Of a stretch of DNA of 64,000 bases, positions 29,158 through 61,458 are shown one piece after another. The number at the start of each line of letters is the position of its first letter. The first letter of the stretch is position 1. The DNA lies in NCBI GenBank assembly GCA_021647945.1, contig JAKITT010000005.1, forward strand, positions 1 through 64,000. The letters are read 5' to 3'. The notes beneath the pieces are model-generated. The model was not told where the DNA came from and made no database searches. It saw nothing but the letters and a program-made list of their open reading frames with translations. Source of the DNA: Candidatus Polarisedimenticolaceae bacterium. Lineage in GTDB: Bacteria > Pseudomonadota > Gammaproteobacteria > Chromatiales > Chromatiaceae. The translations under genes were made by a program, and so were the position numbers.

Positions 29158-29535
29158 TTGCCCCATTTACATCATCGCTGTCTCATATCCATTATCACCC
29201 TCTTTTTTTGCGCTCTTTTTGGCACTAATACGCTCGCCGAAGAGAAGGGGCACGAGGCGTGTATCAACTGCCATGTCGCAGCAGATCCAGATAAGAGCGA
29301 AGGCAATATTTCACTACTCTTCCCACAACTCGAACTCTGCCTAAGTTGCCATAAAGATAGAAGTGGCGATAGAGATCACGCCGTCGGCATAGAACCAGGC
29401 CCTGATGGCACGGGTGAGCTACCACTGGTCAATGGTCTTATCAGCTGTACAACGTGTCATGACTCACACATAAAAACAGCTGGCCTGCTGAGGTTACCGA
29501 AAGCTACTTTTTGTCTCGCTTGTCACAAGCTTTAG
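29158..29535 (+). CDS. Small secreted tetraheme cytochrome c
   Basis: A 125-residue exported protein with a signal peptide (IITLFFCALFGTNTLA) and four heme sites: CINCH, CLSCH, CTTCH and CLACH. The spacing and the pair CTTCHDSH ... CLACHKL match the doubled-CXXCH family. The start is TTG at 29158, supported by AGGAG 7 bases upstream; no ATG is available. It is a likely periplasmic electron shuttle. It is plus-strand, upstream of the signal peptidase gene, and sits beside the main multiheme cluster. Confidence 0.88.
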   Translation: MPHLHHRCLISIITLFFCALFGTNTLAEEKGHEACINCHVAADPDKSEGNISLLFPQLELCLSCHKDRSGDRDHAVGIEPGPDGTGELPLVNGLISCTTCHDSHIKTAGLLRLPKATFCLACHKL

Positions 29536-31905: not shown

Positions 31906-33690
31906 TTAGAACCTGACACCAAAATATCGCTGTATCTCGATCGTAATTGTCTGATTCTCATAATCATCAGACCCACCGGTACTGCTATTTGAGTAGGCGT
32001 ATTTGAACGAAGAGACCCATCTGCCCAGTTTATAATCAAGATTAAAATCAGTATCGTATCTTTTATCACGATCCATTTGACTACCATAGCGCTCCACGTA
32101 CTTTGCATTTGCGCGAAAGCGCAGGTTTCTCAAACCAAATGGAGATGTATTATAAGTAAGTCGTGCCGTTTTTGACTTATTCTCATTAGAGGGACCGCCT
32201 GAAGTTGTGTTGTCACTCTCTGCGTAACCAGCTGATGCAATGAGTGATGAATAGACAGCTAGCCTATGTGTCCAGCCTACGTTAGTACTTGTAGAGCTGG
32301 CCTCTCTCTCTACCTTAACACCAGTGATCGAATCACCTTCAGAATCAGAATCAGAACGTTGCTTATAATTTACGGTGAGTTCTACATCATCTCGAATTGA
32401 AAAGCGGCTTTTCGCCCGATACAACAAACCATGGCTCATACTCGTCCGAGTTTTTCCATCAGAATAGCCAAAACTGTACGATATACCATCCCTCCACAAA
32501 GGAGATACACTTTGACTTAAACCAATACCAAAGCCATGACTTACTGTATAACCATCAGATGATTCACTAAGCACAGAGCCAATACCTAACGAATAACTTG
32601 AGGAGAGGTCATATATCCCCCACCGCTGCCCATAAGATAGACCGCCAGCTGCACTTGAGGCAACTTCACCGGAGCCCGCTGCTGATGAAGATGACGTTAT
32701 TGATAGCGAAGCATTTGAATTCCATCGCTCTGAAATTCTGTAATTCATAGAAGCACTGCCAGATGCTGAATTACTGTCATATGAATCTGACGTTGAAGCA
32801 CTTACAGATAAACCATAGTTGGTGTTAAACGCCTCTGTCATCCTTACGCTCAAGCTAGACGAAGCACGCAGTGATTGCATAGAGAGTTGCCGCCCTCCTC
32901 TGTCATCCAGCCTGTTAAAGTAGGATCCTTCTGCGGTTAGACCTATTTCAGGCGTTAAGTTAGTTCTATTATTTATGTACAAGCGGTGTTCTGATGATTG
33001 GCTATCACCCACTCTATTCTCTTTATTATCAAAATGGTAACCATAATTCAGATCAGCCCCGACACGATGACGCTTCGACTTGAACCTACGCTTGCCGATA
33101 ACCTTAAAGGAGTGATCTAATTGCTCTCTATCTGTCGACTCACCGGTCGATACAGCCTTTCTCATTCCATAGGTAAATCGAAGAGCTCCCAAAGTGCGCT
33201 GACTAAGCCCCCAGCGCATTCCAAGAACATCGCTAACGAGCTCATACGTAGGCGCGTAACTAGAGCTAACTGTCGTCACCGAATGATTCATATGCAAGAC
33301 AAAGGGATTTCTGCGTTTAGGCAGCCATGTAGTATAGAGACTATATTGAAGCGACCTAGGCCGCGAACTAACCTCGCTCCCTGTACTGTTTTCTGCCTGT
33401 CTGAAATTTAAACCCGCTGTAAACACCATAAAGCGCGGGTCCCATACGAAGCCCTTTATGCGGTTATTTATAATTGTGCTAAAGCTTTTGCTCTTTATCA
33501 CACTGGATTGATTCCCACTGCGACGATCTATCTGCCTGAGCGTCACTGAACCCGTAAAAGAGAAACTTCCTCTCGTGTACTCTCTGATCGACAGCGCACT
33601 TACATTTTGAGGAAAAAGAGTTATTAATAAAAGTGCCAGCAGGCCTATAATAACTACTCGCTCATACTTAGGCATCTCAATCATGAGCAT
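31906..33690 (-). CDS. Outer-membrane beta-barrel protein, candidate conduit porin
   Basis: About 594 residues. The ATG at 33690 follows GGGGAAT and leads straight into a signal peptide (VVIIGLLALLLITLFPQNVSA). The mature part is almost entirely alternating polar/aromatic strands (for example SLSYGQRWGIYDLSSSYSLG, GISYSFGYSDGKTRTSMSHG). It ends IEIQRYFGVRF, with the terminal Phe typical of BAM substrates. No cysteine-rich or TonB plug part is seen. Size and context (between a PQQ propeller and a multiheme cytochrome) fit an MtrB/OmbB-like barrel that sheathes cytochromes, but I cannot show homology to those families. Confidence 0.75.
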   Translation of the reverse strand: MLMIEMPKYERVVIIGLLALLLITLFPQNVSALSIREYTRGSFSFTGSVTLRQIDRRSGNQSSVIKSKSFSTIINNRIKGFVWDPRFMVFTAGLNFRQAENSTGSEVSSRPRSLQYSLYTTWLPKRRNPFVLHMNHSVTTVSSSYAPTYELVSDVLGMRWGLSQRTLGALRFTYGMRKAVSTGESTDREQLDHSFKVIGKRRFKSKRHRVGADLNYGYHFDNKENRVGDSQSSEHRLYINNRTNLTPEIGLTAEGSYFNRLDDRGGRQLSMQSLRASSSLSVRMTEAFNTNYGLSVSASTSDSYDSNSASGSASMNYRISERWNSNASLSITSSSSAAGSGEVASSAAGGLSYGQRWGIYDLSSSYSLGIGSVLSESSDGYTVSHGFGIGLSQSVSPLWRDGISYSFGYSDGKTRTSMSHGLLYRAKSRFSIRDDVELTVNYKQRSDSDSEGDSITGVKVEREASSTSTNVGWTHRLAVYSSLIASAGYAESDNTTSGGPSNENKSKTARLTYNTSPFGLRNLRFRANAKYVERYGSQMDRDKRYDTDFNLDYKLGRWVSSFKYAYSNSSTGGSDDYENQTITIEIQRYFGVRF

Positions 33691-33992
33691 TTTATTCCCC
33701 AATTTATTAACTAGGGAAGCATTTAGATGTCTGGAATGCATCAATAAATCGTCAAAACAGAGCTGGTGTAGTAACTTAATCAAAACATTTATTATCATAA
33801 TAATGATAAACGTTTCAGGCACTTAATGCATTAAACGCTTATCATGAGCCTGTTGCTGAACTGATTAATCACGAATGTAAATACAAATAGAAACATCGAT
33901 AAATATAACATTAACCGCACCCTATCCTCAATTAGGGTTTATATCCTGCCGACCCGGCCAACACTGTTTTTGAATAGTTTTAAGCCAACAAA

Positions 33993-34049: not shown

Positions 34050-34799
34050 TTACTTCTGATGACACATCAGACACAATGCACTGCCGTCCATAGACATACG
34101 CAAGAATGGCTGTTCACCATCGGTATCATTGTGTGGATCATGGCACGATGGGCACTGAATATAACCCGCAAACAACTTAACATTAGTCAGAGATGAAGCT
34201 TCTCTCAGACCACCATTGTCGGCACCATCCATTGATTGTGCTTCTATATAGCTAAAGTTAACAGGATGGTCATTTTCCAGAGTCCCGTCTGAGAAGAGAT
34301 TGGTTGACCAATCAGCCCCCAAACCTCTACCTGCCCCGACCGCATCGCCACCCGTCATAGTGATGATAGGGTTGCCATTTGATGGATTGTTGACCGCATT
34401 GATCGCAATGGTACCATCATGACAAGAGAGACAGAGGTTACTGGTCACTGCTGTCGCTGCAGTCACACCACCCAGATCTGCTATGCTAAGACCTTGATCG
34501 CCAGTTTGCGAGCCATCACCGAAGGTAGGGCTGGTGTATACCCCGTAAGACGCTACTGTTGAGAGATCATGATTCCATAGTGGAATCACGTCATTTTTGA
34601 TCGCGTTATGCGGGGTGTGACAGTAGATACAAATTTCAGGATTGTCAGTTGAATAGATTCTATTCGCACCATTCACACCAGTAATTGGCTGGCCTATAGA
34701 ACTCAGATTATGCTTGGTGTTTGTAATACTAGCTGATGCCTGAAACGACAGGCCCAGAATCGCTGCGGTCACCGCAACTGTAAAAATTGATTTATTCAT
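34050..34799 (-). CDS. Secreted tetraheme cytochrome c (TKHNLS family)
   Basis: 249 residues with a signal peptide (VAVTAAILGLSFQASA). Four heme sites are seen: CIYCH, CLSCH, CPSCH and CLMCH. The opening (TKHNLSSIG, then EICIYCHTPHNA, LWNH, LCLSCHDGT) is shared with the N terminus of the 11-heme protein at 59422, so the two belong to one family. The ATG at 34799 follows GGAGGG; a longer frame to 34826 is less likely. It is probably periplasmic or at the outer membrane, downstream of the NHL lipoprotein gene and upstream of the barrel gene. Confidence 0.9.
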   Translation of the reverse strand: MNKSIFTVAVTAAILGLSFQASASITNTKHNLSSIGQPITGVNGANRIYSTDNPEICIYCHTPHNAIKNDVIPLWNHDLSTVASYGVYTSPTFGDGSQTGDQGLSIADLGGVTAATAVTSNLCLSCHDGTIAINAVNNPSNGNPIITMTGGDAVGAGRGLGADWSTNLFSDGTLENDHPVNFSYIEAQSMDGADNGGLREASSLTNVKLFAGYIQCPSCHDPHNDTDGEQPFLRMSMDGSALCLMCHQK

Positions 34800-34997
34800 A
34801 ATAATACCCTCCAGGGTCTCCTCCAAATATTTAGATTCAAGTCATGGTAGTGCGCATTAATTTATTATCTTTAGCGCCTTTTGCCCACGTCTCGAACCAA
34901 AGACTCTCACATTTTTTTCGATGATTCAAGTATTTTAACCAGCCATCCAACTAAGCTGATCGACAATAAACACTCTCATTCGCCCTACAATATTAAA

Positions 34998-36101
34998 TTA
35001 TTTGCCTTCAGCAGACTTACCCTCAGCAGACTTACCCTCAGCAGCCTCACCTGCTTCCGCTTCCACCCCATCTTTAAGGTATTGAAAAATCTGGATACGT
35101 GCATTAATTGAGTCCGCAACATAAATTTTATCTTTTGCATCGATAAATATCCCTGTTGGCAGCCAAAACATGCCTGGACGCCTACCTAGCGCGCCAATAA
35201 AAAGCATCAATTTCCCCTCTTTATTGAATATCTGGTAGTTATTAAACGCCGCATCAAGTGCATAAAGATTCTCTTCGCTATCCAGTGCAATACCCTTAGG
35301 TCGTGCCAGTGAGCCATATGAATCGCCCAACTTGCCTACACTGCGGATAAACTCACCCTCAGGCGAGAAGACCTGAATACGAAAATTACCACTATCAACG
35401 ACATAAAGGTTGCTCTCTTTATCCAACGCTAAGCTAATGGGGAAATTCAGTTCACCGGGTGCACTCCCCCGCTCTCCCATTTCATCAATAAACTCACCAT
35501 CCAAGGTATAGATCAGGATGCGATGGCTCGGCGTATCACTGACATAAAAACGGTTGTTTTTCTCATCAATTACTAGCCCTGTTGGACGCTGTAACCCCTC
35601 GCCATCGCCCAACGTTAGCAGTGTCTTCCCCTCTTTTGAGTAAATATTTACCCGACCTGCAGCAGAATCAGTCACAAATATCCGCTCCTGACTATCGATA
35701 CGGACCTCAAGCGGAGTCGTCAACCCGCCCATCGCATCGGTAGGGAATGGGTAGACACTCTTTTTTTCAAAGTCAAACACTACCAGTGCATGTAATTTAG
35801 TATCTGTTACATACATCAGTTTTCCATCACGACTGGTTGTTACGCCATAAGGCTTCAATAACTGCAGCCCTTTCTGGTCGATTCCAAGCAGTGCTGCCTT
35901 AAAGCTGGTCGTGTCTGAAAAATCTGCTTGGCCTGAATATGAGTCAATATATCGTATTCTTGGCTGTTCTGGCGGCGCTGGCCAGAATAGATCAACCACC
36001 TCTTTTTTAGCTGGCCCACTGCTACAGCCAACTAACGTCAACGCACAAACAGATATAACAGCCCAACTCATTACACTAAAGACGCCTTTGCATCTTTGCA
36101 T
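34998..36101 (-). CDS. NHL-repeat beta-propeller lipoprotein
   Basis: About 367 residues. The start at 36101 follows AAGGTG. A lipobox ends the leader (VCALTLVGCSSG). The text after it, FWPAPPEQPRIRYIDSYSG, is typical of six-bladed NHL lipoproteins found with multiheme cytochromes in metal-reducing bacteria. NHL blades follow (RIFVTDSAAGRVNIYSKEG, NRFYVSDTPSHRILIYTLDG, NLYVVDSGNFRIQVFSPEG, KIYVADSINARIQIFQYL). The extreme C terminus is a tandem AEGKS repeat. The protein probably scaffolds or docks cytochromes at the membrane. It precedes the tetraheme gene; a decayed copy of the same pair lies at 61470. Confidence 0.88.
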   Translation of the reverse strand: MQRCKGVFSVMSWAVISVCALTLVGCSSGPAKKEVVDLFWPAPPEQPRIRYIDSYSGQADFSDTTSFKAALLGIDQKGLQLLKPYGVTTSRDGKLMYVTDTKLHALVVFDFEKKSVYPFPTDAMGGLTTPLEVRIDSQERIFVTDSAAGRVNIYSKEGKTLLTLGDGEGLQRPTGLVIDEKNNRFYVSDTPSHRILIYTLDGEFIDEMGERGSAPGELNFPISLALDKESNLYVVDSGNFRIQVFSPEGEFIRSVGKLGDSYGSLARPKGIALDSEENLYALDAAFNNYQIFNKEGKLMLFIGALGRRPGMFWLPTGIFIDAKDKIYVADSINARIQIFQYLKDGVEAEAGEAAEGKSAEGKSAEGK

Positions 36102-36469
36102 CGTATTCACCTTTTTTGTTCTAGTAAGCAATTTAACTCTCCGCAATTCAGTATTTAAAGTCTGATCACGAACTGACAACTGAAACCTTGTTTTGTTCTG
36201 AATTCTGGCAACAGAACTGAAGCATCCGGCCAATAGTACCCTAGCTCTTGCAACAGAAAAAGTGATGGATATTATTTTCATGCCGAACCACACAACATTT
36301 ACCCAAATTTCAGGAATCAGAATCAACAGCATTTCCAATAACCCTCCCTCTGCGTGATAATCACCCCATATTAATAATGAGGTATGGTTTTACCGCCATA
36401 CATTAAGGAACTTATCCAGCTTTCTGCTGGTCGCACTCACCATATAACATCAATAACCTGGAGTTTTTC
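36102..36469. other. 368-base divergent intergenic region
   Basis: Spacer between the NHL lipoprotein (minus) and the NrfJ-like protein (plus). An open frame continues from the lipoprotein gene to 36338 but has no signal or family match, and I take it as non-coding. I see no clear repeat or RNA. Confidence 0.45.
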
Positions 36470-37126
36470 ATGACGCCATTGATCACCCTCTCACTGCTCG
36501 CTGCAGCACTTACTTTATCTACCGCAGAGATCAGTGCAGGTGCGCCAATTGGACACCCTGAAGTCAATGAGGCTGATCGCGCGTTGCACTCAGCTGCAGC
36601 CAAATATCCCAATCAAGGCAAGGCGCTTGAGGTCTTCCAAGCTGGCGAATATACCTATATCAACATTGAGAAGGAGGAGGGGTCAGAGTGGATCGCCGTA
36701 GCCACGCTGAATGCAAGCAAAGGCGACATCATCAAGTACAGCAAAGGCTCGCTGATGAGTAATTTCCACAGCAAATCCCTGGATCGGACTTTTCCAGAGA
36801 TTCTTTTTTCAGGGGCGGCTGATTTCGTCAGTGGCAAACATCCATCAATGGCTGAAACAGCATCCATTTTGAACATTTCTGGTGATACAACCGAACTTTC
36901 CAATCAGGGTAAGGTTTTAAGCACCATACCCACCTCAATGTACACCTATATTGAGGTCTCTCATGATGGCGCAGAGCGCTGGCTGGCCGTTCCATCAGTC
37001 GAGTTAAAAGTAGGTGATGAGATCCAATACGGTGATGGCGCGGCTATGGCTGACTTCTACAGTAAATCGTTAGACCGAAAATTTTCAACTGTCTTCTTCA
37101 TCTCAAAGGTTGTCATCGTTAAATAA
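36470..37126 (+). CDS. Exported protein with two tandem NrfJ-like domains
   Basis: 218 residues with a short signal peptide (LITLSLLAAALTLSTA). Two similar domains follow, at about 50-115 and 147-212. Each runs GK-L-x(5)-YTYI-E/I, a WIAV or WLAV strand, KGD or VGDEI, a GS/AxMxxFxSKSLDR box (SNFHSKSLDR and ADFYSKSLDR), then F. This pattern matches small periplasmic NrfJ-related domains that accompany c-type cytochromes. Function is unknown; metal or heme-ligand binding has been suggested for relatives. It is the only plus-strand gene between 30.7 and 46.3 kb, so it is transcribed against the cytochrome genes on both sides. Confidence 0.7.
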   Translation: MTPLITLSLLAAALTLSTAEISAGAPIGHPEVNEADRALHSAAAKYPNQGKALEVFQAGEYTYINIEKEEGSEWIAVATLNASKGDIIKYSKGSLMSNFHSKSLDRTFPEILFSGAADFVSGKHPSMAETASILNISGDTTELSNQGKVLSTIPTSMYTYIEVSHDGAERWLAVPSVELKVGDEIQYGDGAAMADFYSKSLDRKFSTVFFISKVVIVK

Positions 37127-37170: not shown

Positions 37171-40100
37171 TTAATTCCAAGGCCTGAGGCGTCGCCTACT
37201 CTTCTTATCGCTTCGTTCCGAATGGAAATATTTATAGCGTCGTAGACTCTCGATCCCATGGCAGTCACTACAGACGTTGCGCGCACTCTTAAAGCGCAAG
37301 AAGCTACTGCGGTTATTTCCTTCCAACTGCCTGCCCGGCCCCTGCCGATCATTCTCCGGCGTCCATGAATGCGGGTTATGGCATGTTGGACAGGTGATAA
37401 TACCGGCATTACTTTTTTGCCCACTCGGATCATAGAGAGGAACATAGTTCTTTGATTTTTTTCTTGTTGCCTCACCGACAAGCACCGTTTCAGGATGACT
37501 AAACTCCTCTACGATTTTGTCATGCCCTACTCTGCCTTCATCATGACAATCAAGACAGAGCCGCTCAGGCAGCATCTCGCTCTTGTCACTCAACCCTCTT
37601 GCCCATAGCTGATAACCGCCTTCCATCGAGTCATGCGGTACATGACAAGCACTACAGACACCGCTCTCTCCCACAGTCTGTTTCAGGCGATTCTTCTCTT
37701 CTTGACCAGTGATACGCATGTCATGTTCGGTATTTACCACGTTGGCCTTTTGCGTATGGCACGTCACACATAGACCCGATGTCGGAAGATTTGATCTCCG
37801 AAGAAAACTATTACTGCCATCTCCCTCTAAATTCTTACTCGCCCTGGGCGCCCCTTTTTCAGGGTCCCATCGGTGAGGGTTGTGGCAGGTAGAACATGTA
37901 ATATCACCTTCTGGTGAACGTTCACCCTCATTGGTAAATAGTGGTAACTCTGTATCAATTTTACCCTTGCCATAAAATCTTGCCGTCTCCAGCTTTAGTG
38001 TCGCCTTTGCCTCTGAGACCTTTTTATTCATCGGGTGTTTAGGGCCGTGCAATCTCTTTTTCGAGGCTGATTTTCGCCTCGCGTGACAACCATTACAAAG
38101 CGCCTCATTTCTATTTTTTCCGGAACCTACACCTCGACTCCATAGTCCATCACCCCAAGCGTTATGTACCATGTGGCACGCCCCACAAACGCCGGTTTCA
38201 TCGGCCGTTAACCGTTCCATATTAATCTCACGGGGTGCTGAAACGCGCAGATCATGATCGGAGCCAAGAATCATCGCATTCACTTCATGGCACGTTGCAC
38301 ACAGCGTTGCATCATCATCGTTGGCTTGTCGTAAAAAGCTATTGAAACGATCGCCCTCAATCTTTTTCTCACCTGGGCCGCGTTCCGAGCCGGGTGACCA
38401 GCTATGCAGATCATGGCAGGTGGCGCATGAAACCCCGCCTTGCCGGCTTCTTCGACCATTTTTCTCATAGAGAGGCAGCGTATGCTCTTTGCCCACTTTA
38501 AATATTGGTACACCACCCATCGGGTGTGACTCATCCCCCGTCATCTTCTCTTCAGCGAGATGCCCTCGACTATGGCAGGCGTTACACATCTGCTCAATGA
38601 CATCTTCACCAACGCCGAGGTTACGTCCCCACAACTTATCACCATCAGCATTATGAATGAGGTGACATGCCCCACACACGCCTGATCGCTCAACCCCCTG
38701 ACCATGGCTGTTTTTTGATCTATCCGCTTCCAAGCTGAGGTCATGTTCAGTACCCAGAATGGCCCCCTGCTTCTGATGACATGATCGACACAACGCCTGC
38801 TGCTTGGTTTCGCTCTTTCTCAGAAAACTGCTGTTGCCGTCACCATCAACATCCTTCCCCCCGCGCTGATCTGACGCTACAGCCCAGAGGTGCGCATCAT
38901 GGCAGGTGGCACAAGAGACCTTGCCCGCCACATCGACATCACCTTCAACATTAAACAGCGGCAAGCCGCTCTTCTCGCTCACCGCTTGATCAACACCAAC
39001 ACCTGTTGGATGGCTATGCTCTCCAGTCAACGCCTCTTCCGCCATCTCACCTTTGGCATGACAACTGATACAGAGCTGATCTAAACTTTCACCCTCAACC
39101 TGCCTAGCCCACATCCTTGGGCCATACCCTTTATGCATAAAGTGACAGCTCTTACAAACACCTCCATTTGCCGCCGCCTCACCATCGGCAGATGGCTCTT
39201 TTGAGTTAAAGCGTGGGATATCATGTTTGGTGCGCAGGATGGTCTCTTTTGACGAGTGGCAGGTCATACAGAGCTTGTCACCACCATCGTTTACTACCAA
39301 TAGATGATTCTTTTTAGTGCCATTGTGTGGTGAATGGCAGGTTCGGCAGTTAACCTTTTTACCACCGCCTAAATAGGGTTCTTCACCATTATCCCACCGC
39401 GCGGGGAGCTTGGCATCGTCCGTAATATCAACATCTACCGGATGCGAATGGCGACGAAGCACTCCGTCACTGCTCATATCTGGCGAGAGTCCATGACAGG
39501 TCTCACACAGTTTCGACTGCGGCACCCCCTCTTCACTATTTGGAATGATCAGAAAGTTATCACCGGTGCTGCCATGTGCGGTGTGGCATGTTTCACAGAT
39601 GACTGTGTTCTTCACACCCACCTTGGCACCGGCATCTAGAATCTCTTGTGGCAATGCATCAAACTCAACATCAACTGGATGCATCCCCTCATCAGCGCCA
39701 TCATCTTTATCACGATGGCAACGCTTACACATGGATGAGCCTACATTGGCTTCACGCAAAAAAATGGCCGATGCCATATCGACACGCGTATCCACGCCAT
39801 GCGAGGTGTGACAGGTAGCACATGTCATTTTACCCTCGGCATCCAGCGGAAACTCTTCTGGTATGGTCACATTCTCAGAGGGTTTGATGCCTGACTTATG
39901 TTTGCTGGTCTCCCACACTCTAAAGCGAGAGTCGGCGATTGAGCCGTCATGACAGCTGTAACACATCATCTCATCAGCAGCGACACGCGCTTCTGGCATC
40001 TCCATCAGGAGATCTTTTTTCTCTTCATTGATGAAGTCATCCATCCAGCGAAGGTGACACATTGAACACTCTTTAGATGAGTTCTGACCACCTTCGGGCG

Positions 40101-40173
40101 CAGCAACGGCACTGATCGGCAATAGGAGTAGACAGAGAAAAAACAGACCACCCAGCACACGATAACTATTCAT
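37171..40173 (-). CDS. Secreted 24-heme cytochrome c with four tandem tetraheme modules
   Basis: 1000 residues with a signal peptide (LFFLCLLLLPISAVAA). I count 24 CXXCH motifs, from CSMCH (residue 36) to CSDCH (near 966). The last 16 hemes fall into four repeats of about 160 residues beginning near 335. Each reads GVCxxCHxxH, xLCxxCH, xxCxTCHxxH, an SSFLR or NSFLR box, then xxCxxCH and, in three of them, TEHD or SDHD. The first 8 hemes are less regular. The C terminus is Arg/Lys-rich (KKSRRRLRP). No membrane anchor or lipobox is seen, so it is periplasmic or passes to the surface. Its start overlaps the NHL protein stop (ATGA), so the two are translationally coupled. It is probably the long-distance wire of the conduit. 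Confidence 0.93.
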   Translation of the reverse strand: MNSYRVLGGLFFLCLLLLPISAVAAPEGGQNSSKECSMCHLRWMDDFINEEKKDLLMEMPEARVAADEMMCYSCHDGSIADSRFRVWETSKHKSGIKPSENVTIPEEFPLDAEGKMTCATCHTSHGVDTRVDMASAIFLREANVGSSMCKRCHRDKDDGADEGMHPVDVEFDALPQEILDAGAKVGVKNTVICETCHTAHGSTGDNFLIIPNSEEGVPQSKLCETCHGLSPDMSSDGVLRRHSHPVDVDITDDAKLPARWDNGEEPYLGGGKKVNCRTCHSPHNGTKKNHLLVVNDGGDKLCMTCHSSKETILRTKHDIPRFNSKEPSADGEAAANGGVCKSCHFMHKGYGPRMWARQVEGESLDQLCISCHAKGEMAEEALTGEHSHPTGVGVDQAVSEKSGLPLFNVEGDVDVAGKVSCATCHDAHLWAVASDQRGGKDVDGDGNSSFLRKSETKQQALCRSCHQKQGAILGTEHDLSLEADRSKNSHGQGVERSGVCGACHLIHNADGDKLWGRNLGVGEDVIEQMCNACHSRGHLAEEKMTGDESHPMGGVPIFKVGKEHTLPLYEKNGRRSRQGGVSCATCHDLHSWSPGSERGPGEKKIEGDRFNSFLRQANDDDATLCATCHEVNAMILGSDHDLRVSAPREINMERLTADETGVCGACHMVHNAWGDGLWSRGVGSGKNRNEALCNGCHARRKSASKKRLHGPKHPMNKKVSEAKATLKLETARFYGKGKIDTELPLFTNEGERSPEGDITCSTCHNPHRWDPEKGAPRASKNLEGDGSNSFLRRSNLPTSGLCVTCHTQKANVVNTEHDMRITGQEEKNRLKQTVGESGVCSACHVPHDSMEGGYQLWARGLSDKSEMLPERLCLDCHDEGRVGHDKIVEEFSHPETVLVGEATRKKSKNYVPLYDPSGQKSNAGIITCPTCHNPHSWTPENDRQGPGRQLEGNNRSSFLRFKSARNVCSDCHGIESLRRYKYFHSERSDKKSRRRLRPWN

Positions 40174-41114
40174 CGCCCAATCTCATAAAGCGTCACCCGA
40201 TGAGCAAACATCTCCACCACGTAGAGAAGCCCTTTTTGATCAAAATGAAGCCGAGTGGGGGTGATAAACTTAAGCAGCTGGCCCTCTTCATCCAACAGTA
40301 CTGAGAGAAACCGGCCTTGATTGTCGAAGACCTGGATTACACCGAGGAAAGAGTCCGAGATATAGACCTCATCTCTGTCGTCGATGGCGACCCCTTTGGG
40401 GCGAAACAGCTCTCCCCGCTCTACACCCCACTTGCCAATACTGGCATCAAAATGGCGTTTCTCATCTGGCAGGTAACTCTTCACCGTCGTATTAATCACA
40501 TCAACAACAAATATCCGCCCCTGCCGGTCAAGCTTTATCGAAAAGGGCCAGCGCAACTCACCCCCCTTCATTCCCATGCCGCCGATATAGCGTTTGAAGC
40601 GTTTCTGTTTTAGGTCATAGACCAGCACTTTGTGGTTATCATTGTCCACCACGTAGAGTTTGTTACGCACGTCGTCAATGGCGACATCGGTGGGATCAGG
40701 TTTGCGGCCATCACCGTCATGCGGCAGCTCTATATGGTGCAGGTACTGTCCGTCAGATGAGAAGAACTGAACCCGTGAATTGCCCGTATCAGCGACATAG
40801 AGGTTCCCATCACGATTCATCGCCATGCCCAGTGGGTTGTTAAACTCACCCGGCTTGCTGCCACCTTTACCAAATTGGTTTAGATATTGCCCTTGGGCAT
40901 CATAGTGAACGACTCTGTTATTGACGCCATCCAATACAAATATTTCACCACGGCTGTTGACCAGCACATCACTGGGGTGGCGCAACTCCGGGCCTGAGCC
41001 AATACCAATAGTGGCAATTTTCTTGGCCGTTATCGCACCTACGGCCTGCAATGGCATGCCGACGAGAATAAGGGTGAGGCAGAGGAACCACGGCACAGAT
41101 AGATGATAACTCAC
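40170..41114 (-). CDS. Exported NHL-repeat beta-propeller protein
   Basis: 314 residues with a signal peptide (VPWFLCLTLILVGMPLQAVGA) and no lipobox. About six NHL blades are visible (EIFVLDGVNNRVVHYDAQG, NLYVADTGNSRVQFFSSDG, KLYVVDNDNHKVLVYDL, RIFVVDVINTTVKSYLPDE, EVYISDSFLGVIQVFDNQG, LLYVVEMFAHRVTLYEIG). The start is GTG. The stop overlaps the 24-heme cytochrome start by four bases, so the two proteins are made together and probably bind each other. The 168-base gap upstream holds no gene I can support. Confidence 0.88.
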   Translation of the reverse strand: MSYHLSVPWFLCLTLILVGMPLQAVGAITAKKIATIGIGSGPELRHPSDVLVNSRGEIFVLDGVNNRVVHYDAQGQYLNQFGKGGSKPGEFNNPLGMAMNRDGNLYVADTGNSRVQFFSSDGQYLHHIELPHDGDGRKPDPTDVAIDDVRNKLYVVDNDNHKVLVYDLKQKRFKRYIGGMGMKGGELRWPFSIKLDRQGRIFVVDVINTTVKSYLPDEKRHFDASIGKWGVERGELFRPKGVAIDDRDEVYISDSFLGVIQVFDNQGRFLSVLLDEEGQLLKFITPTRLHFDQKGLLYVVEMFAHRVTLYEIGR

Positions 41115-41282: not shown

Positions 41283-42245
41283 TTATGGCAACTGAAATTT
41301 CTTGAGATCCTTGGTGTCATGACAGCCCAGGCAGATTTTCGAGTTATCTTTGCTAATTCTCAAACGCTTATGGGCATCCGCACCAATGTTGGCCTCATTC
41401 CTTGGCTGCACACCCAGCTCATGCGGGTTATGGCATGTGCCACAAAAAACATTACCCGTCACCAATTCCAACGGAAGAATCGCCGCGTCATCTCGCTGCC
41501 CCATCCTTTTTACCATCTCTGCATCAGGTTTTTTGGCATGGTATATCGGGCTGCCATTTTCCTCAAAGCCCATCACACAACCGGCCGCATAGGCGTCATT
41601 GGTATGGCAGCGTAGGCAGATTTTATCTACACGATCAGAGTCGAAGGTAACATCTGCAATGCTCTTTGCGGTTTTACGGTTGGGCACCCGATCATGACAA
41701 TAGGTACAAACTTCTGTATCGAGCTCACCCTCATCATTAATCTGATTGTGCGGGTTAAACTTTTTATATTTATTCCGCTCATGGCAGTTGTAACAGAGAT
41801 CTGTCCGCTTCTCATAGGGGGCACCACGGTGAAATAGACGGTTCTCCTTCTTACGATCGAACTCTTCACTAAGGCACTGGTATTTCATCTCATGACAGAC
41901 TGCACAGGTAATCTTGCCCTCTTCATTCAATCCGCTAAGAAAACTCTCTGGCATCTTCTCCAGCATCGGCTGCGTGGGCAACATGCCACTTGAGTGGATA
42001 TATTTATCTTTTGAAATGGTGATATGGCAGCGGTTGCAGAGTAGATTGACATCACCGTTGTATTTCAGCGCTAACTCCTGATCATCTTCAGGCACCTTGT
42101 CATGACACTGTAGACAAGATGACTCTTTGTCAGACCAATGCGGGTTCACATATGAGAACCAATCATCAGCCGCCATCAGCGGGGCAGCACTGAGAAGAGA
42201 GATCACCCCGACCATTAAAATCTTTACCAGCAACTGCTTCATCAC
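41283..42245 (-). CDS. Secreted octaheme cytochrome c
   Basis: 320 residues with a signal peptide (LVKILMVGVISLLSAAPLMA). Eight heme sites are seen: CLQCH, CNRCH, CAVCH, CYNCH, CTYCH, CLRCH, CGTCH and CLGCH. The pattern CGTCHNPHELG ... RLRISKDNSKICLGCHDT is of the doubled-CXXCH type. It contains no OTR/HAO-like catalytic Lys or Tyr motif that I can see, so it is an electron carrier rather than a nitrite or hydroxylamine enzyme. It follows the PQQ propeller by 2 bases, in one operon. Confidence 0.92.
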   Translation of the reverse strand: MMKQLLVKILMVGVISLLSAAPLMAADDWFSYVNPHWSDKESSCLQCHDKVPEDDQELALKYNGDVNLLCNRCHITISKDKYIHSSGMLPTQPMLEKMPESFLSGLNEEGKITCAVCHEMKYQCLSEEFDRKKENRLFHRGAPYEKRTDLCYNCHERNKYKKFNPHNQINDEGELDTEVCTYCHDRVPNRKTAKSIADVTFDSDRVDKICLRCHTNDAYAAGCVMGFEENGSPIYHAKKPDAEMVKRMGQRDDAAILPLELVTGNVFCGTCHNPHELGVQPRNEANIGADAHKRLRISKDNSKICLGCHDTKDLKKFQLP

Positions 42246-42247
42246 GC

Positions 42248-43510
42248 CTATTCCTTACCCCAAGCAAACAGATAACCATTCAAACTACCAATATAGAGCT
42301 GCTCATCGACTATGGCAGGAGATGAGTGAAATGCATCTCCCGGCACCTCCTCTTTCCAGAGGATATCTCCATCCTCCAGACCCACGGCATAGAGCACGCC
42401 CTCTTCTGTCGCAACATAACCAATACCTTGAGCGATCGCCATGCTCGAACTGATTTTAGAACCCAAGTTTTGCTGCCACTCAATGGAACCATTGTCTGCA
42501 TCAAAACTGGTCAATTTTCCCTCTTTATCCCCGACATAGACCTGCTCACCATCTGACACCGGCGCGGCAAACACCCAATCACCCAACGGCACCTTCCACT
42601 CAAGCTCACCATCTTCAGCATTTAATGCATAGACCATTCGGTCATAGCCACCGATAAAGAGCCTCCCATTATTCACCGTGGGGGTTGAGTAAACAGCGGA
42701 GTGGGTCTTAAAGGTCCAGACAATCCGGGCCAAGGTGATATCTATGGCCGATACTGTGAACGATTTTTCAGCCACATATGCCATATTCCCTACGATTGCC
42801 GGTGATGAATATACGCCGCTGCTATTTAGGCTTTTAGAGAGGGCCGTCTTCCAAATCAGATACCCCTTCTCCATATGTAGTGCATAGAGATAACGGTCAT
42901 TCGAGGCAAAATAGACGATGCCATCAACCACCGCCGGTGATGTGGTGATTTTTCCGGCTGTCTTATATTTCCAGATCAGTTCGCCACTCTCAGCATCTAG
43001 ACAGTAAAAGTGACTATCCTTGCCACCAAAAAAAACGCGCCCGTCTTTGACGGCCGCAGATGAGATAATTCCAGCTTCTGTTTCAAACAACCAGCGCTCA
43101 TCACCGCTCTCTCTATCTAATGCGTAGAAAACCCCATCAAGCGAACCAAAATAGATGGTTGATTGGGTCACAGCGGGGGAGGCGTAGATGGCATCGCCAG
43201 CACGATAGTCCCAAAGCAGTTCTAATGGTGGGGAGAGTTTTGACCCATTCTGCGCACTGTGTGTAGGGTCGGCAAGAAACATCGGCCAACTTGATCCCTC
43301 TTTGCTGGCCGCATCAAGTGTCATAGGGAAGAGAATCAGCGCTATTAGCAGTGGTGGCATAGTCGCACTCAATGAGCGGGCCAACCGGCTTATCAGGCCA
43401 GCAAAACCGACACTACCGCCCCCCTTGACAGAAGGGGTATGGGGAAACCAATTTGAGTCCATTTTTTCGGTCATTAGAGACGAACAATTACCCATTTTGT
43501 TTAACAACAA
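42248..43510 (-). CDS. Exported PQQ-type beta-propeller protein
   Basis: Up to 420 residues. The mature part has seven PQQ-blade repeats (GDERWLFETEAG, GELIWKYKTAG, LIWKTALS, RIVWTFKTHS, GELEWKVPLGD, GSIEWQQNLGS, GDILWKEEVPG) and is a paralogue of 30708. The true start is unclear. The leader-like stretch MPPLLIALILFPMTLDAAS begins at 43360, and the residues before it look non-coding in composition, so 43360 is a good alternative. It lies 2 bases upstream of the octaheme gene. Confidence 0.82.
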   Translation of the reverse strand: MLLNKMGNCSSLMTEKMDSNWFPHTPSVKGGGSVGFAGLISRLARSLSATMPPLLIALILFPMTLDAASKEGSSWPMFLADPTHSAQNGSKLSPPLELLWDYRAGDAIYASPAVTQSTIYFGSLDGVFYALDRESGDERWLFETEAGIISSAAVKDGRVFFGGKDSHFYCLDAESGELIWKYKTAGKITTSPAVVDGIVYFASNDRYLYALHMEKGYLIWKTALSKSLNSSGVYSSPAIVGNMAYVAEKSFTVSAIDITLARIVWTFKTHSAVYSTPTVNNGRLFIGGYDRMVYALNAEDGELEWKVPLGDWVFAAPVSDGEQVYVGDKEGKLTSFDADNGSIEWQQNLGSKISSSMAIAQGIGYVATEEGVLYAVGLEDGDILWKEEVPGDAFHSSPAIVDEQLYIGSLNGYLFAWGKE

Positions 43511-43623: not shown

Positions 43624-44445
43624 TTACTCTGCTTCACGCCTTCGTTGACGATCACGAAATCTCGCATCTGGATCGAACATTGTTGGCAGATAGAATTTCT
43701 TATATTTTGTAATCATCGTTACAACTTCACCACTCTCCAATCGGTTTACCACAACAGGAGAGTACTTCAGCTTTGCAAAATCAAGAATACCATCTTTATC
43801 GTGGCATTCATTGCAGAAGATTGGTTTGGTTGAAATTTCTTTATGAATTCTGACCTTAGCCTCGGCCTGTTGATCCGCATTAAAGGTTGCTCGCAGCTCC
43901 AAATACTCTTCTATAAACGTCTTATCCGCAGACTCATCAAGCCGTCGACTGACACCATTTTCCATCCTAAAGGGCACAATCATACCGCCGTAGTTACCCG
44001 GCTTTCCCTCCAGCGTTAACAGCTCTTGGCCTGTTTTGTTATCTAGCCATTTATAGGTTATTTGATCCTCTTCAGCAGGACGAATATGACACACCTCACA
44101 GGCAGTGAAGTAGGCATGTGCATTAAGAAATGCTCGCACATCGGGTGCCTTAGAATGAGGATAATTGCCATGGCACTTCAGACAGAGCGACGGTGATTCC
44201 GCCCCGGCCCTGACAGCAGCATCAAGATTGTGGAAATGCTCATTGCCAACCCCAACGCCCAATGCAATTCGCTCCATCTCCGTCTGATCCAGTGCCGTAT
44301 TAGAGAAGCCCGTATCATAGATGCCGCGAAAAAAGGTGAGCCAAATCAACCACAATGCAAAAGCCGCAAGTAATAGGAAGACCCCCCCCATCAAAAAATC
44401 GATAAGGAGCCGCTTTACTGGGTGTATATTTCCGTGATCATGCAT
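43624..44445 (-). CDS. Membrane-anchored triheme cytochrome c
   Basis: 273 residues. One N-terminal membrane helix (LLIDFLMGGVFLLLAAFALWLIWLTFF spans about 13-40) anchors a periplasmic domain with three heme sites: CLKCH, CEVCH and CNECH. Conserved His residues outside the motifs could be axial ligands. The start overlaps the cytochrome b gene by 8 bases. With the cytochrome b and octaheme proteins upstream, it looks like part of an inner-membrane quinol:cytochrome module, similar in layout to Cbc-type complexes of Geobacter. That comparison is inference from gene order. Confidence 0.87.
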   Translation of the reverse strand: MHDHGNIHPVKRLLIDFLMGGVFLLLAAFALWLIWLTFFRGIYDTGFSNTALDQTEMERIALGVGVGNEHFHNLDAAVRAGAESPSLCLKCHGNYPHSKAPDVRAFLNAHAYFTACEVCHIRPAEEDQITYKWLDNKTGQELLTLEGKPGNYGGMIVPFRMENGVSRRLDESADKTFIEEYLELRATFNADQQAEAKVRIHKEISTKPIFCNECHDKDGILDFAKLKYSPVVVNRLESGEVVTMITKYKKFYLPTMFDPDARFRDRQRRREAE

Positions 44446-45169
44446 CGTCGCGTTTCTCTACATCTTTTTCTGTCGCAGCAGCAGTGGCTGTGGCCTCTTC
44501 TGCCTCCAATCTATCTAACCAGAGCGGATGCTCTTCAAGCATGATCTCTTCAGAGATCTGGCCATCAATAAACGCCTTATTCATTGGATAGACGTGCGGG
44601 TTATAGTGAACGGTGAAGATGTGTCCAACGATAATCGCAAGTGCAGCCAGCGTCGCCTCCCCCAGATGGAGAGCATCTGCCACATCAAGATAGAACTTAG
44701 GCCATAGCCACTCTGTCCACATCATGGTTCCAGTGAGAATGACGATAAACATGCCAAAATAGACTGAAAAATATTCGAGCTTCTCCATATAGGTGAAACG
44801 ATCCATTTTAGGCCGCGCCTTTCTAAAGCCGAGCATAAAACTAACATTCTGACCGGCATCCACACCATCCTTCAGCCGTGGAAGCATATCTCTAAGCCAG
44901 CTCCGCCCCTCTTCTGAAACCACCACGTAGACCATGTGATAGAGGCAGACCAGCGTCACCGCAACACCTGCAATACGATGCACCACACCACGCCAATAGA
45001 AAATGGTATTACCTGCTGAACCAAAGAGGTCAATCGCCCAACGCTCACCCAACAGCATAAAGCCGGTAAGGATCAGCAGCCCTGTTGAGGTGAATAAGAT
45101 GACATGCTGAATACGCTGGCTCACCGTCAGCCGCAGAAAAGTTCTCTGTTTTTTACCATGATGACTCAT
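44438..45169 (-). CDS. Membrane cytochrome b (b561/HydC-like)
   Basis: 243 residues with four hydrophobic helices (HVILFTSTGLLILTGFMLLG, VVHRIAGVAVTLVCLYHMVY, YFSVYFGMFIVILTGTMMW, LAALAIIVGHIFTVHYNPH). His residues in the first, second and fourth helices are placed for two b hemes. The C terminus is Glu/Ala-rich and cytoplasmic. It would link the quinone pool to the c-type cytochromes encoded on either side. It overlaps both neighbours (1 base with the octaheme gene stop, 8 bases with the triheme start), the tightest packing in the window. Confidence 0.9.
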   Translation of the reverse strand: MSHHGKKQRTFLRLTVSQRIQHVILFTSTGLLILTGFMLLGERWAIDLFGSAGNTIFYWRGVVHRIAGVAVTLVCLYHMVYVVVSEEGRSWLRDMLPRLKDGVDAGQNVSFMLGFRKARPKMDRFTYMEKLEYFSVYFGMFIVILTGTMMWTEWLWPKFYLDVADALHLGEATLAALAIIVGHIFTVHYNPHVYPMNKAFIDGQISEEIMLEEHPLWLDRLEAEEATATAAATEKDVEKRDDA

Positions 45170-46260
45170 CAGTGATGCCCTCCCATCTTACTTGCACGGC
45201 GTGATGCATAGAGATCAAGCAGCCGATGCATACCGAGACCACCAACCACACCGACAATCAATATCTTGTAGATCAAATTTATCAGGTTTAGAACCCAGGT
45301 CTGAAAGGCCAACTCGGCCTGTGAGACCTCCTCGCCTGCCCGTGCCTGTCGTCCCGCACTCTGCAACGATGCATGCACCTTGCCTTTGCTGGCAAACTCC
45401 TCTTTTGCACCCGCATGACAACCCTGCTGAGCACAGGTCTCAAGCTTATGTTCCGGGCTCACTGGCGATACATCATCTCGACTAGATTTCACTCGATGCG
45501 GAGAGAAACCAAGCCCATAGGGGGCATGACAGTTGAGACAGTTAGCAACCTCTTCATCACCATAAACAATCGCCTTTCCGTGGAAGGTATCTTTAAAACC
45601 CACCACGACATCCAGATCATGGCGTTCCATCATCGCCTGATCTGCGTGACATTTACTACAGAGCGCGACCACCTCTTTAGAGGAACGGCGTGTTGAAGCC
45701 CGATAGAACATGTGGCGGTAGAAGCGTTCAGTCCACTCCTTTGACTCGTGGCACTCCAGACAGATTTTTATGAATTTCATCGAAGCTATCTGTTCATCCA
45801 TACCGATTTGGTAGGCCTTATTACTATGGCAATCCTTACAATTGGGCAGATCTTCCATATGCTCATCAGTGCGTGACCCTTTATAACCATGCGCACTGAA
45901 ATCGAGATCTTTCTTGATCGCTTTATGCGAGAAGTCGCGACCTGTCGAAGGGTCTTTTAGATGGCAATCTTTAGCACAATTGACTGCCTCAACGTCGGTA
46001 TGTGGAATCTCCTCCACACCATCATGACAGCTCTTACAACGTAATTTTCCATGGTATGAGGCCTTATACTGCTCCTCATTCACATAGAAAACCCGTTTCT
46101 TGGCATTCTGATTCTCATCTTTGCCATACCGCCCCAACCCTGCGTACTTATGACACATGAGACAGTTCTCATCATCGGTTGCGTAGACTGAGTTCGGCGC
46201 ACCCAACAGGATCACACCACTCAATATGCAACAGACCGTAAAATAGACTCTATTTATCAT
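45169..46260 (-). CDS. Membrane-anchored octaheme cytochrome c with two expanded heme motifs
   Basis: About 363 residues. A signal peptide (YFTVCCILSGVILLGAPNSVYA) is followed by six CXXCH sites (CLMCH, CKSCH, CKDCH, CLECH, CSKCH, CLNCH). There is also one CX3CH (CAKDCH) and one CX4CH (CAQQGCH), giving up to eight hemes. Near the C terminus one membrane helix (LINLIYKILIVGVVGGLGMH) anchors it. The ATG at 46260 is preferred over the upstream TTG. It is the first gene of the minus-strand cytochrome operon, directly coupled to the cytochrome b gene (TGATG), and the two likely form the quinone-facing entry or exit of the chain. Confidence 0.9.
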   Translation of the reverse strand: MINRVYFTVCCILSGVILLGAPNSVYATDDENCLMCHKYAGLGRYGKDENQNAKKRVFYVNEEQYKASYHGKLRCKSCHDGVEEIPHTDVEAVNCAKDCHLKDPSTGRDFSHKAIKKDLDFSAHGYKGSRTDEHMEDLPNCKDCHSNKAYQIGMDEQIASMKFIKICLECHESKEWTERFYRHMFYRASTRRSSKEVVALCSKCHADQAMMERHDLDVVVGFKDTFHGKAIVYGDEEVANCLNCHAPYGLGFSPHRVKSSRDDVSPVSPEHKLETCAQQGCHAGAKEEFASKGKVHASLQSAGRQARAGEEVSQAELAFQTWVLNLINLIYKILIVGVVGGLGMHRLLDLYASRRASKMGGHH

Positions 46261-46376
46261 TTTCAATATTCAAACCCGACCTTTCATCATGCAGCGAACA
46301 AAATTCCATACCACATCCACCGCCTCACCAACGCGTACGAACAAACCTCAATACCACGATACTACGCTAAAGCACT

Positions 46377-46459: not shown

Positions 46460-46606
46460 TTAAACAAAATTGATTGTATCCCCATAAAAACTCAGAACAA
46501 AGATTCCCACTAACAGTATTGAATTTAGACCGAAATTGACCCAATCTTAATAGGCAGTGGTACTAACTTAAGCCAATGCATTATGAACCCCCATCAGAGA
46601 GTAACT

Positions 46607-59421: not shown

Positions 59422-61458
59422 TTACATGCCACCGCCACCGCCCATCATGGAGCAGCTACCGACGCCAGGGCCATGGCAGTCACTCTTTTGCCAATTTCCA
59501 CTCTGAATACTATCCACATTCGTATCTGAGTGAATGCCATAATCCGTATCGCCATCCATGAGAATTTTCCTGCTCTGGGCATTGTAGGGCTCAGGATCTG
59601 CGCCAGAATCTACGAGTGGATCACGGCCATAGACCAGCAGAGCGCGCCGTTCCATGCCATGTGGAAGCGCTGAATGGCAACTCATGCAGGGCTTATCCCT
59701 TGAACCAACATGCCAAGCATGGAGTTGCCCCCCGCTCATCATACCGTCTCCACTAAACCCTGTATCACGCCAAGTTGTTGCGGCACCACGCCCGGTATAG
59801 ACATCCCAACTGTGGCACTTGAAACAGAGATGGCTGCTGGTCCCTGCCAATCCGGTCGTTGGCCCCCACTCTCTAACAAGAATGGGCCAGAAATCACTGC
59901 CATGAGGCCCTTTGGGAGTAACACCAGGGATATCGTCAGAGTCTGAGTGGCAGTCAGTACAGGCCAATGTGCTATTAGCTGTCATATTACTCACCAACGA
60001 ACTGGAGTAATCGTAGGGAACCCCGCTTACGGTCATTATAAAATCATTCTTACCCGGCCCAACTACAGCATGATGAGAAGCATTATTGGGGTTAAACTCC
60101 TTCGCCTGATCAGTCAATGAATCATAACCAGGAGTCCCTTCCGGCTCTGGTGGAGGGGAAAAGCCAAACGCATAGGATGAATGGCATTTCATACAGAGTT
60201 GGTACTGATAGACCACATCATCAACTTCCACATAATCAGTATCATTCAGCATTCCCCAGTTTCCAGGCCATGAGGGTTCCACGCCCCAGGCACCTCTGAG
60301 AACATTCGAGGCCAGGTTGCTGGTACCACCTGTATCAGTCGGCCCGGGCGATACACCCGCTGAAACAGCATGAGGATTATGACAGTCCTGACACTCTGCG
60401 TGGCGATTGTCCAAATTAGCCTGTGTCTCACGCACCTTGCCACTTACGCCGTCTCGCTGCGCATCATGCACCCCATCCGTCACCAACATGGGGTGAGCGT
60501 AGAACTTATTGACTGATGCCTCTATATCCTTAGTGGCCACATTGCCATTATGACAAGCGAGACAGACCTCTTGCTCTCCATCACGCGCCAGTAGTTTTGT
60601 CCCGCCACCACCATTGTGCGGCTGATGGCAACTGAAACAGGCGTTCGCTTTGGGGGTTGAGTTGCCATCGTTGGCTAAATTATGGCCATCTTGGAACCAG
60701 GGGTTGGTACCTGCACCATTCCACTCAGCCAGTGACTCCCGATGCGGCTGATCTGTCACAGTGCCCCAGTACTCTTTGGTATGGCAGGTACGGCACAGCT
60801 GTGCACCATATCCTGCACCATCCGTGGAGGCTAGACGAAGAAACATGGGGTTCACGTCAGTGTGAGGGTCGTGGCAACTGGTACATTGGAGATAGCCAAG
60901 TTTATCGGGCTTAATTGAGTCAGAAAGCTCAGAGGGCAGTACCAGCTCACCATTTTCAATCGCTAAGGTATCGTTATAGATAAATGAGACCGGATGATCA
61001 TCGCGCAGATCGGTACCCAGTAGCGCGGTACTTGTTCCTGGCATTGCGGCTTCGAGACCGACGATCACACCACTCTCCTCACCCACGGCATGCCCTTCCC
61101 AGCGATTACGGCCGGGCATGTTCAGCACACTACCCAGTGCAATGGTGCCATCATGACAGGAGAGACATAGTTTGGAGGCACCAGTGGGCTGTCCTGGGGC
61201 GGCAATCAGTGTTGAGCTGACATAGGGATTATAGGTCTGCCCGGCTGGCAGCGCATGATTCCATAATGGTGTGTCGGGGCTCGCCAGATGGGGGGTGTGG
61301 CAAAAGATGCAGACCTTCTGCTCAGCCGTTGCTTTGATCGTTCCTGGACCTGAGGCCGATAAGTTATGTTTGGTGGCGGAGACATCACCTGCCACTGCCA
61401 CACCACTGAGAGTGGTCAGCAGCAGACCCATAAACCAGTTTAAGCACGCTCTTTTCAT
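59422..61458 (-). CDS. Secreted 11-heme cytochrome c (TKHNLS family)
   Basis: 678 residues with a signal peptide (WFMGLLLTTLSGVAVA). Eleven CXXCH sites: CIFCH, CLSCH, CTSCH, CRTCH, CFSCH, CLACH, CQDCH, CMKCH, CTDCH, CFKCH and CMSCH. The N terminus (ATKHNLSASG, then VCIFCHTPHLAS) matches the tetraheme protein at 34050. Near the C terminus SGNWQKSDCHGPG keeps the second half of a heme motif without the first Cys, and the same is seen in the paralogue at the window edge. The tail is GSCSMM-GGGGGM. It is preceded by an NHL-protein relic and the CcsA gene, and followed by an IS5 remnant. Confidence 0.92.
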   Translation of the reverse strand: MKRACLNWFMGLLLTTLSGVAVAGDVSATKHNLSASGPGTIKATAEQKVCIFCHTPHLASPDTPLWNHALPAGQTYNPYVSSTLIAAPGQPTGASKLCLSCHDGTIALGSVLNMPGRNRWEGHAVGEESGVIVGLEAAMPGTSTALLGTDLRDDHPVSFIYNDTLAIENGELVLPSELSDSIKPDKLGYLQCTSCHDPHTDVNPMFLRLASTDGAGYGAQLCRTCHTKEYWGTVTDQPHRESLAEWNGAGTNPWFQDGHNLANDGNSTPKANACFSCHQPHNGGGGTKLLARDGEQEVCLACHNGNVATKDIEASVNKFYAHPMLVTDGVHDAQRDGVSGKVRETQANLDNRHAECQDCHNPHAVSAGVSPGPTDTGGTSNLASNVLRGAWGVEPSWPGNWGMLNDTDYVEVDDVVYQYQLCMKCHSSYAFGFSPPPEPEGTPGYDSLTDQAKEFNPNNASHHAVVGPGKNDFIMTVSGVPYDYSSSLVSNMTANSTLACTDCHSDSDDIPGVTPKGPHGSDFWPILVREWGPTTGLAGTSSHLCFKCHSWDVYTGRGAATTWRDTGFSGDGMMSGGQLHAWHVGSRDKPCMSCHSALPHGMERRALLVYGRDPLVDSGADPEPYNAQSRKILMDGDTDYGIHSDTNVDSIQSGNWQKSDCHGPGVGSCSMMGGGGGM

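Follow-up and report, generated by a model that had tools for sequence, protein, structure and literature searches.

The window (the whole 64,000-nucleotide stretch of DNA that was analysed) carries a cluster of multiheme cytochrome genes on its minus strand, in the order 6-heme cytochrome, b561-type membrane protein, anchored 3-heme cytochrome, PQQ propeller, 8-heme cytochrome, NHL protein and 24-heme cytochrome. The order continues past the 24-heme gene with an NHL lipoprotein, an OmcE-like tetraheme cytochrome, a beta-barrel candidate and a PQQ propeller. A plasmid DNA search and Rfam gave no match in the window. The genes of interest are:

45169..46266, minus strand, 6-heme cytochrome
44438..45169, minus strand, cytochrome b561-type membrane protein (Ni_hydr_CYTB, E 6.2e-11)
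43624..44445, minus strand, 3-heme cytochrome with an N-terminal membrane anchor predicted from the sequence
42248..43510, minus strand, PQQ-type beta-propeller
41283..42245, minus strand, 8-heme cytochrome
40170..41114, minus strand, NHL beta-propeller protein, with a 4-nucleotide overlap (ATGA) with the start of the 24-heme gene
37171..40173, minus strand, 24-heme cytochrome (1000 amino acids, Sec signal peptide, 8-heme head and four tetraheme modules)
34998..36338, minus strand, NHL lipoprotein (with a lipobox, LVGC, following an internal start)
34050..34826, minus strand, OmcE-like tetraheme cytochrome (OmcE 7TFS, E 2.9e-26; 9YUQ, E 4.5e-21)
31906..33822, minus strand, putative outer-membrane beta-barrel (Ser/Gly/Tyr-rich, C-terminal Phe, without a Pfam match)
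59422..61458, minus strand, 11-heme cytochrome with an N-terminal OmcE-like domain, a possible further component

The gene of the large cytochrome starts with an ATG at 40173 and ends with a stop at 37171. Its product carries a signal peptide without a lipobox, contains exactly 24 CXXCH motifs by motif count and matches the Pfam family Paired_CXXCH_1 (PF09699) with 162 bits against a gathering cut-off of 20.6. It can be divided into the following parts:

39265..40098, minus strand, 8-heme head, from about residue 26 to residue 303 or beyond, hemes 1-8 (CXXCH at residues 36, 71, 118, 149, 193, 223, 276 and 302), with Trp43 in place of the +3 His at heme 1
38767..39252, minus strand, module 1, residues 308-469, hemes 9-12 (CXXCH at 340, 368, 421 and 462), OmcE register, HMM 165 bits
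38278..38766, minus strand, module 2, residues 470-632, hemes 13-16 (CXXCH at 500, 530, 583 and 625), the copy duplicated in 28-heme relatives
37747..38277, minus strand, module 3, residues 633-809, hemes 17-20 (CXXCH at 663, 693, 760 and 802)
37249..37746, minus strand, module 4, residues 810-975, hemes 21-24 (CXXCH at 840, 873, 928 and 968), the terminal module, with the tail ligand H984 just past its end

The repeat structure was examined by a self-comparison in which the protein was split into 12 diheme units and every heme motif was masked. Units 5, 7, 9 and 11 (A-type) are mutually alike with z scores of 4.7-18.8 and units 6, 8, 10 and 12 (B-type) with z scores of 10-21, while the similarity between A-type and B-type units is near zero. 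Hemes 9-24 are thus a strict A-B alternation that forms four tetraheme modules, far above chance, with repeat lengths of 160, 163, 177 and 161 amino acids. Two further boxes recur in the repeats and are strongly conserved among 40 relatives, namely an FLR box (residues 450-452, 613-615, 790-792 and 958-960) and a T/S-E/D-H-D box (H477, H640 and H817). Units 3 and 4, which hold hemes 5-8, are a divergent and weak extra copy of the module (HMM E 1e-10 and 2.5e-9), and hemes 1-4 have no recognisable likeness to the module beyond their heme motifs.

A scan of bacterial genomes retrieved 76 loci with related large cytochromes, 68 of which encode complete proteins, from the Gammaproteobacteria, Nitrospirota and Desulfobacterota. 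The complete relatives carry 20 (16 proteins), 24 (38) or 28 hemes (7), with seven others, and the heme number is a multiple of four in 61 of the 68. Nearly all share the divergent 8-heme head, and it is the number of strong modules that varies, with 3, 4, 5, 6 and more, of which the first four values correspond to 20, 24, 28 and about 32 hemes. Between relatives whose heads share 60% identity or more, the difference amounts to complete tetraheme modules (24 and 28, or 20 and 24 hemes), and a 28-heme orthologue that is 56% identical to the window protein has one contiguous extra module. In a tree of modules, two modules of the 28-heme proteins group with module 2 from 24-heme relatives, which shows a duplication of module 2, and a single clade (support 0.98) unites the last modules of arrays of 3 to 6 modules from several phyla. 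The array therefore grows in the middle, and the head and the cap stay fixed. It is hardly credible that the protein is an assembly artefact or stems from tandem genes fused in a single metagenome-derived genome; the assembly is a 163-contig draft, but the frame runs without stops and the same architecture is found in dozens of independent assemblies and in several phyla.

These results bear out what a sequence-only reading of the locus had observed, and they support its interpretation in part. It had described 24 hemes of which hemes 9-24 lie in four repeats of about 160 residues, and the self-alignment that it suggested, carried out with the heme motifs masked, displays the module repeat with z scores that are mostly 10-21. 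The shared SSFLR and TEHD-type boxes are present and highly conserved across the 40 relatives, and the proposed growth by internal duplication is supported by the whole-module differences among relatives and by the module-2 copies in the tree. The translational coupling to an NHL protein that it named agrees with the ATGA overlap, and an overlap of 4 nucleotides between the NHL and large cytochrome genes is also seen in 23 of 49 relatives.

Several loci depart from the common pattern. Large-cytochrome copies are broken, frameshifted or shortened at three of them (L056, L058 and L068). The same genome as the window encodes a second 24-heme paralogue (L035:14931-17975, on G000:C14), which has 6-, 3-, 8- and 7-heme neighbours of its own and is directly followed by a pentaheme OmcE-like protein (L035:17983-18804). 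Three related large cytochromes (L036:11405-13879, L040:5686-8913 and L045:8955-11573) are heme-free over about 320 amino acids at the N-terminus, and the one from L040 has regular diheme repeats of 69 amino acids (43+26), a step of two hemes instead of four. At L098 (3410-5704) and other Nitrospirota loci, the operon of the 20-heme protein also encodes a second one, with 18 hemes and modules of the same type.

The module is highly reminiscent of a known nanowire subunit. OmcE of Geobacter sulfurreducens (7TFS) and its relative 9YUQ have the same boxes, heme order and register as the module, and the order of boxes common to the module and OmcE is KHD, CxxCHxxH, W, CxxCH, HP, LPLF, CxxCHxxH, FLR and CxxCH. 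A profile built from 155 modules aligns over its full length with the OmcE-family profile (99.5% probability, E 1.9e-22), and when the heme columns were kept and all other columns permuted, none of 100 null comparisons reached the observed score of 138.7 (null mean 43, z 12.6). With the heme motifs masked in both profiles the global alignment still has E 5.7e-7 and a score of 37.2, where the nulls reach at most 10.5. Compared with all PDB sequences, the module profile ranks 9YUQ (2e-11) and OmcE 7TFS (5.6e-11) as the best two, and the next group follows five orders of magnitude behind at 6e-6. The control families of 8-, 7-, 6- and 3-heme cytochromes from the same clusters have no masked similarity (E 0.05-0.7); the OmcE-like N-terminal domain of the 11-heme protein retains it (E 3.6e-14). 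Each module is homologous, as judged from these profile comparisons, to the OmcE nanowire protomer, over the full length and in register. The head was considered as well, but hemes 1-8 are not claimed as OmcE modules because their OmcE likeness is not significant once the heme motifs are masked, even though hemes 5-8 are weakly A/B-like.

The homology is clear only with profiles, since phmmer with the single whole protein against the PDB returned 9YUQ alone and weakly (E 0.0026). An OmcE HMM applied to single windows of the 24-heme protein scores in every register and leaves the phase unsettled, whereas module profiles cut in shifted registers re-align to one phase in a register test at the profile level. 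The scoring of single-sequence windows in every register, and the failure of Foldseek to find a match, would be expected if the OmcE likeness consisted of shared heme motifs only and arose by convergence of paired CXXCH motifs, with neither common descent nor common packing. That explanation is very improbable in view of the masked and column-permuted controls, the specificity among multiheme families, the retention of phase and the PDB ranking. The homology also changes how the protein is to be viewed, as the sequence-only reading had set it apart from polymeric nanowires made of small subunits. This contrast is misleading given that the repeat corresponds in register to the OmcE protomer, with the TEHD box of that reading equivalent to the N-terminal KHDL box of OmcE, and it is further undercut by the gene for an OmcE-like subunit in the same cluster (34050-34826).

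Structure prediction with AF2 of the full 24-heme chain, heme-free and with 40 relatives, gave a pLDDT of 70.6 and a pTM of 0.58, with the modules at about 80 and the head mostly poor, and a single module with the next junction, also heme-free, reached a pLDDT of 82.7 and a pTM of 0.78. A Foldseek search of the PDB with the full-chain and single-module models found no match for either. For OmcE itself Foldseek found only close homologues, and its small content of secondary structure was given as the cause (PMC9473688), which makes the null result weak evidence either way.

In OmcE and OmcS one heme takes its His ligand from the adjacent subunit (PMC9473688). The OmcE-like proteins end 2 residues past the last CXXCH and have a conserved His in the N-terminal KHD box (9 of 9), and this His most likely serves heme 4 of the neighbouring subunit, an assignment that follows from counting ligands in the sequences. 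The 24-heme protein has a KHD box directly after heme 4 of each module, at the junction with the next. It is proposed that at each junction the KHD-box His serves as ligand to heme 4 of the module before it and would thus reproduce within one chain the inter-subunit bond of the OmcE filament, in which case the hemes would stack without a break from module to module. A comparison of 40 relatives gives 23 conserved distal His residues, one after each of hemes 2-24, at position +3 for odd hemes and +11 to +17 for even hemes, and each is kept in 39-40 of the 40.

The two ends of the chain are different from those of OmcE. No distal His is conserved for heme 1 in the 40 relatives; Trp occupies its +3 position in 58 of 58, and a His within 15 amino acids ahead of heme 1 occurs in only 5 of 58. 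At the other end, OmcE-like proteins, which in all nine cases have the 2-residue tail and the N-terminal His, would leave heme 4 to a neighbour, whereas in the 24-heme family the last heme has a tail His of its own (58 of 58). These residues are observed, and taken together they suggest that both ends seem to be closed, which would imply that the chain stays a wire of fixed length.

The gene partners of the family are conserved to different degrees. The NHL gene is present in 68 of the 76 loci and nearly always adjoins the large cytochrome, followed by the 3-heme (54), 6-heme (50), b561 (48) and 8-heme (45) genes, while OmcE-like (9), barrel (7) and 11-heme genes (14) are minority partners within the flanks examined. 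In the window the OmcE-like tetraheme gene lies two same-strand genes, about 2 kb, downstream of the 24-heme gene, and its product is a candidate polymeric nanowire subunit. In the 369 genomes surveyed from the class, OmcE-like proteins are found in 12 of the 14 genomes with the family and in 38 of the 355 without it (Fisher p 8e-10, uncorrected for phylogeny or cytochrome richness).

The 24-heme protein can reasonably be taken for a single-chain wire, and its probable nature is that of a closed, fixed-length concatemer of OmcE-type protomers which would cross the periplasm from the b561 module to outer-membrane or nanowire parts. The sequence shows a constant 8-heme head followed by four tetraheme modules in one covalent chain of OmcE-type protomers, and the number of modules would set the length of the wire. 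With less certainty, the chain may work together with the membrane module that the cluster encodes (b561, 3-heme and 6-heme proteins) and carry electrons through the periplasm, linking the quinone pool to the outer-membrane and OmcE-nanowire components. The rise of OmcE is 3.4 nm per tetraheme (PMC12954529), and from this the four modules are predicted to span about 14 nm, and the whole chain as much as about 20 nm should the head pack likewise; a length of 14-20 nm would be of the order of a periplasm. A more tentative extension, which we hold to be possible but would not bet on, is that one building block serves two wires, an open OmcE-like polymer outside the cell and a closed concatemer whose module count is matched to the periplasmic gap. 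Heme 1, which has no ligand of its own, might in that case be a contact that accepts a partner.

Two other roles have to be weighed against the periplasm-crossing wire. The protein could act at the surface or outside the cell as a wire, or as a cap or anchor of an OmcE-like filament. The barrel candidate would then be its route of export, and the protein would be comparable to the extracellular cytochromes of PCC3 clusters. OmcE itself is extracellular, and an OmcE-like subunit and a barrel candidate share the cluster with the 24-heme gene, but the core operon occurs in most relatives without nearby barrel and OmcE-like genes, and the closed ends speak against attachment to the end of a filament through the OmcE bond, which makes this role rather unlikely. 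The protein could also be a periplasmic electron capacitor, whose hemes store charge when acceptors are scarce and which need not bridge the membranes. Such a role has been argued for the single-chain, multi-domain GSU1996 (PMC10138318), and a signal peptide without a lipobox fits a soluble periplasmic protein. As the principal function it is unlikely, however, as the conserved operon with a b-type membrane module and the homology to a wire subunit indicate conduction, and a fixed head and cap are unnecessary for a charge store; charge storage as a side role is possible.

The periplasm-crossing concatemer can be compared with several known systems. HmcA of sulfate reducers has 16 hemes in tandem c3-type tetraheme domains in one chain, but an assignment of the 24-heme protein to HmcA is not supported, as it scores 42 bits against a cut-off of 400 for NCBIfam NF045713. 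OmcE is a single tetraheme unit of about 220 amino acids that polymerises, whereas here 24 hemes are held by one chain of 1000 amino acids. The Geobacter "nanowires of hemes" GSU1996 and GSU2210 have 12 and 27 hemes in a single chain and are regarded as a wire or a store (PMC10138318). GSU1996-like proteins and the 24-heme protein both consist of several tandem heme domains in one chain, but the domains of GSU1996 are of the triheme c7 type, and one heme in each is His-Met, whereas the present ones are tetraheme and OmcE-type with a conserved His for each module heme. Wires of the GSU1996 kind are further characterised by a linear heme chain at a spacing of 3-5 A. The PCC3 proteins of iron oxidisers have 21, 24 or 27 hemes (PMC5566968, PMC10734462), and a periplasm-spanning role has been proposed for them (PMC10734462). 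Compared by description, they share with the 24-heme protein the character of a very large, repeat-rich cytochrome clustered with an inner-membrane protein. The PCC3 cluster contains a large extracellular cytochrome, a porin and a 5-helix inner-membrane protein, and its heme number changes in steps of three; b561 and NHL genes and steps of four are found here. Apart from the 24-heme protein, no cytochrome of the window exceeds 11 hemes, and the membrane partner matches cytochrome b561, but a barrel candidate is present. PCC3 proteins use 22-39 amino acids per heme and the mature 24-heme protein 40.6, slightly above that range. The Uet pathway of Ca. Tenderia and Gallionella comprises, in the part of its description available, a 4-heme UetA, an 11-heme UetJ, the NHL proteins UetHI, a porin and trihemes (PMC10734462). 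The likeness is one of gene composition alone, the window having 4-heme, 11-heme and NHL proteins, a triheme and a barrel candidate, and that same part of the description mentions no 24-heme wire (PMC10734462).

Long single-chain heme wires are known, including GSU1996, GSU2210, HmcA and PCC3, and so are proteins of up to 86 hemes (PMC10138318, PMC5566968, PMC12133095). No earlier account of 20-, 24- or 28-heme proteins recognisable as this family was found in a search made largely in papers outside subscription, and with that caution a closed-end concatemer of OmcE-type protomers with stepwise length appears to be new to the literature searched. As a natural concatemer of nanowire subunits whose operon includes a quinone-type membrane module, the 24-heme protein is a concrete candidate for the passage of electrons across the periplasm to extracellular cytochrome nanowires. 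Its length and composition are defined, which those of a polymer are not, and this makes stacking, junction ligation and the dependence of conduction on length testable by changes of single modules. The homology joins two classes that are usually kept apart, the polymeric nanowires and the single-chain heme wires, and the order of boxes together with the closed ends provides a sequence rule that separates finite wires from filament subunits in genomes.

The surroundings of the cluster hold further genes. The 11-heme gene at 59422-61458 and a second one (L037:3851-5929, equal to G000:C47:63850-65928) flank ResB and CcsA-type genes for cytochrome c maturation (61771-63800), and both 11-heme proteins start with an OmcE-like domain. 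On the opposite strand within the cytochrome cluster, 36470-37126 (plus strand) encodes an orphan secreted protein of 218 amino acids with an internal duplication, which has no Pfam match and a homologue in one related locus (L089). Just past the cluster, a small tetraheme cytochrome (29158-29535, plus strand) adjoins an S26-type signal peptidase (29785-30690, plus strand) that recurs near 4 of the 76 related loci. Upstream of the cytochrome operon lies a divergent gene for a GAF-GGDEF diguanylate cyclase (46583-47965, plus strand).
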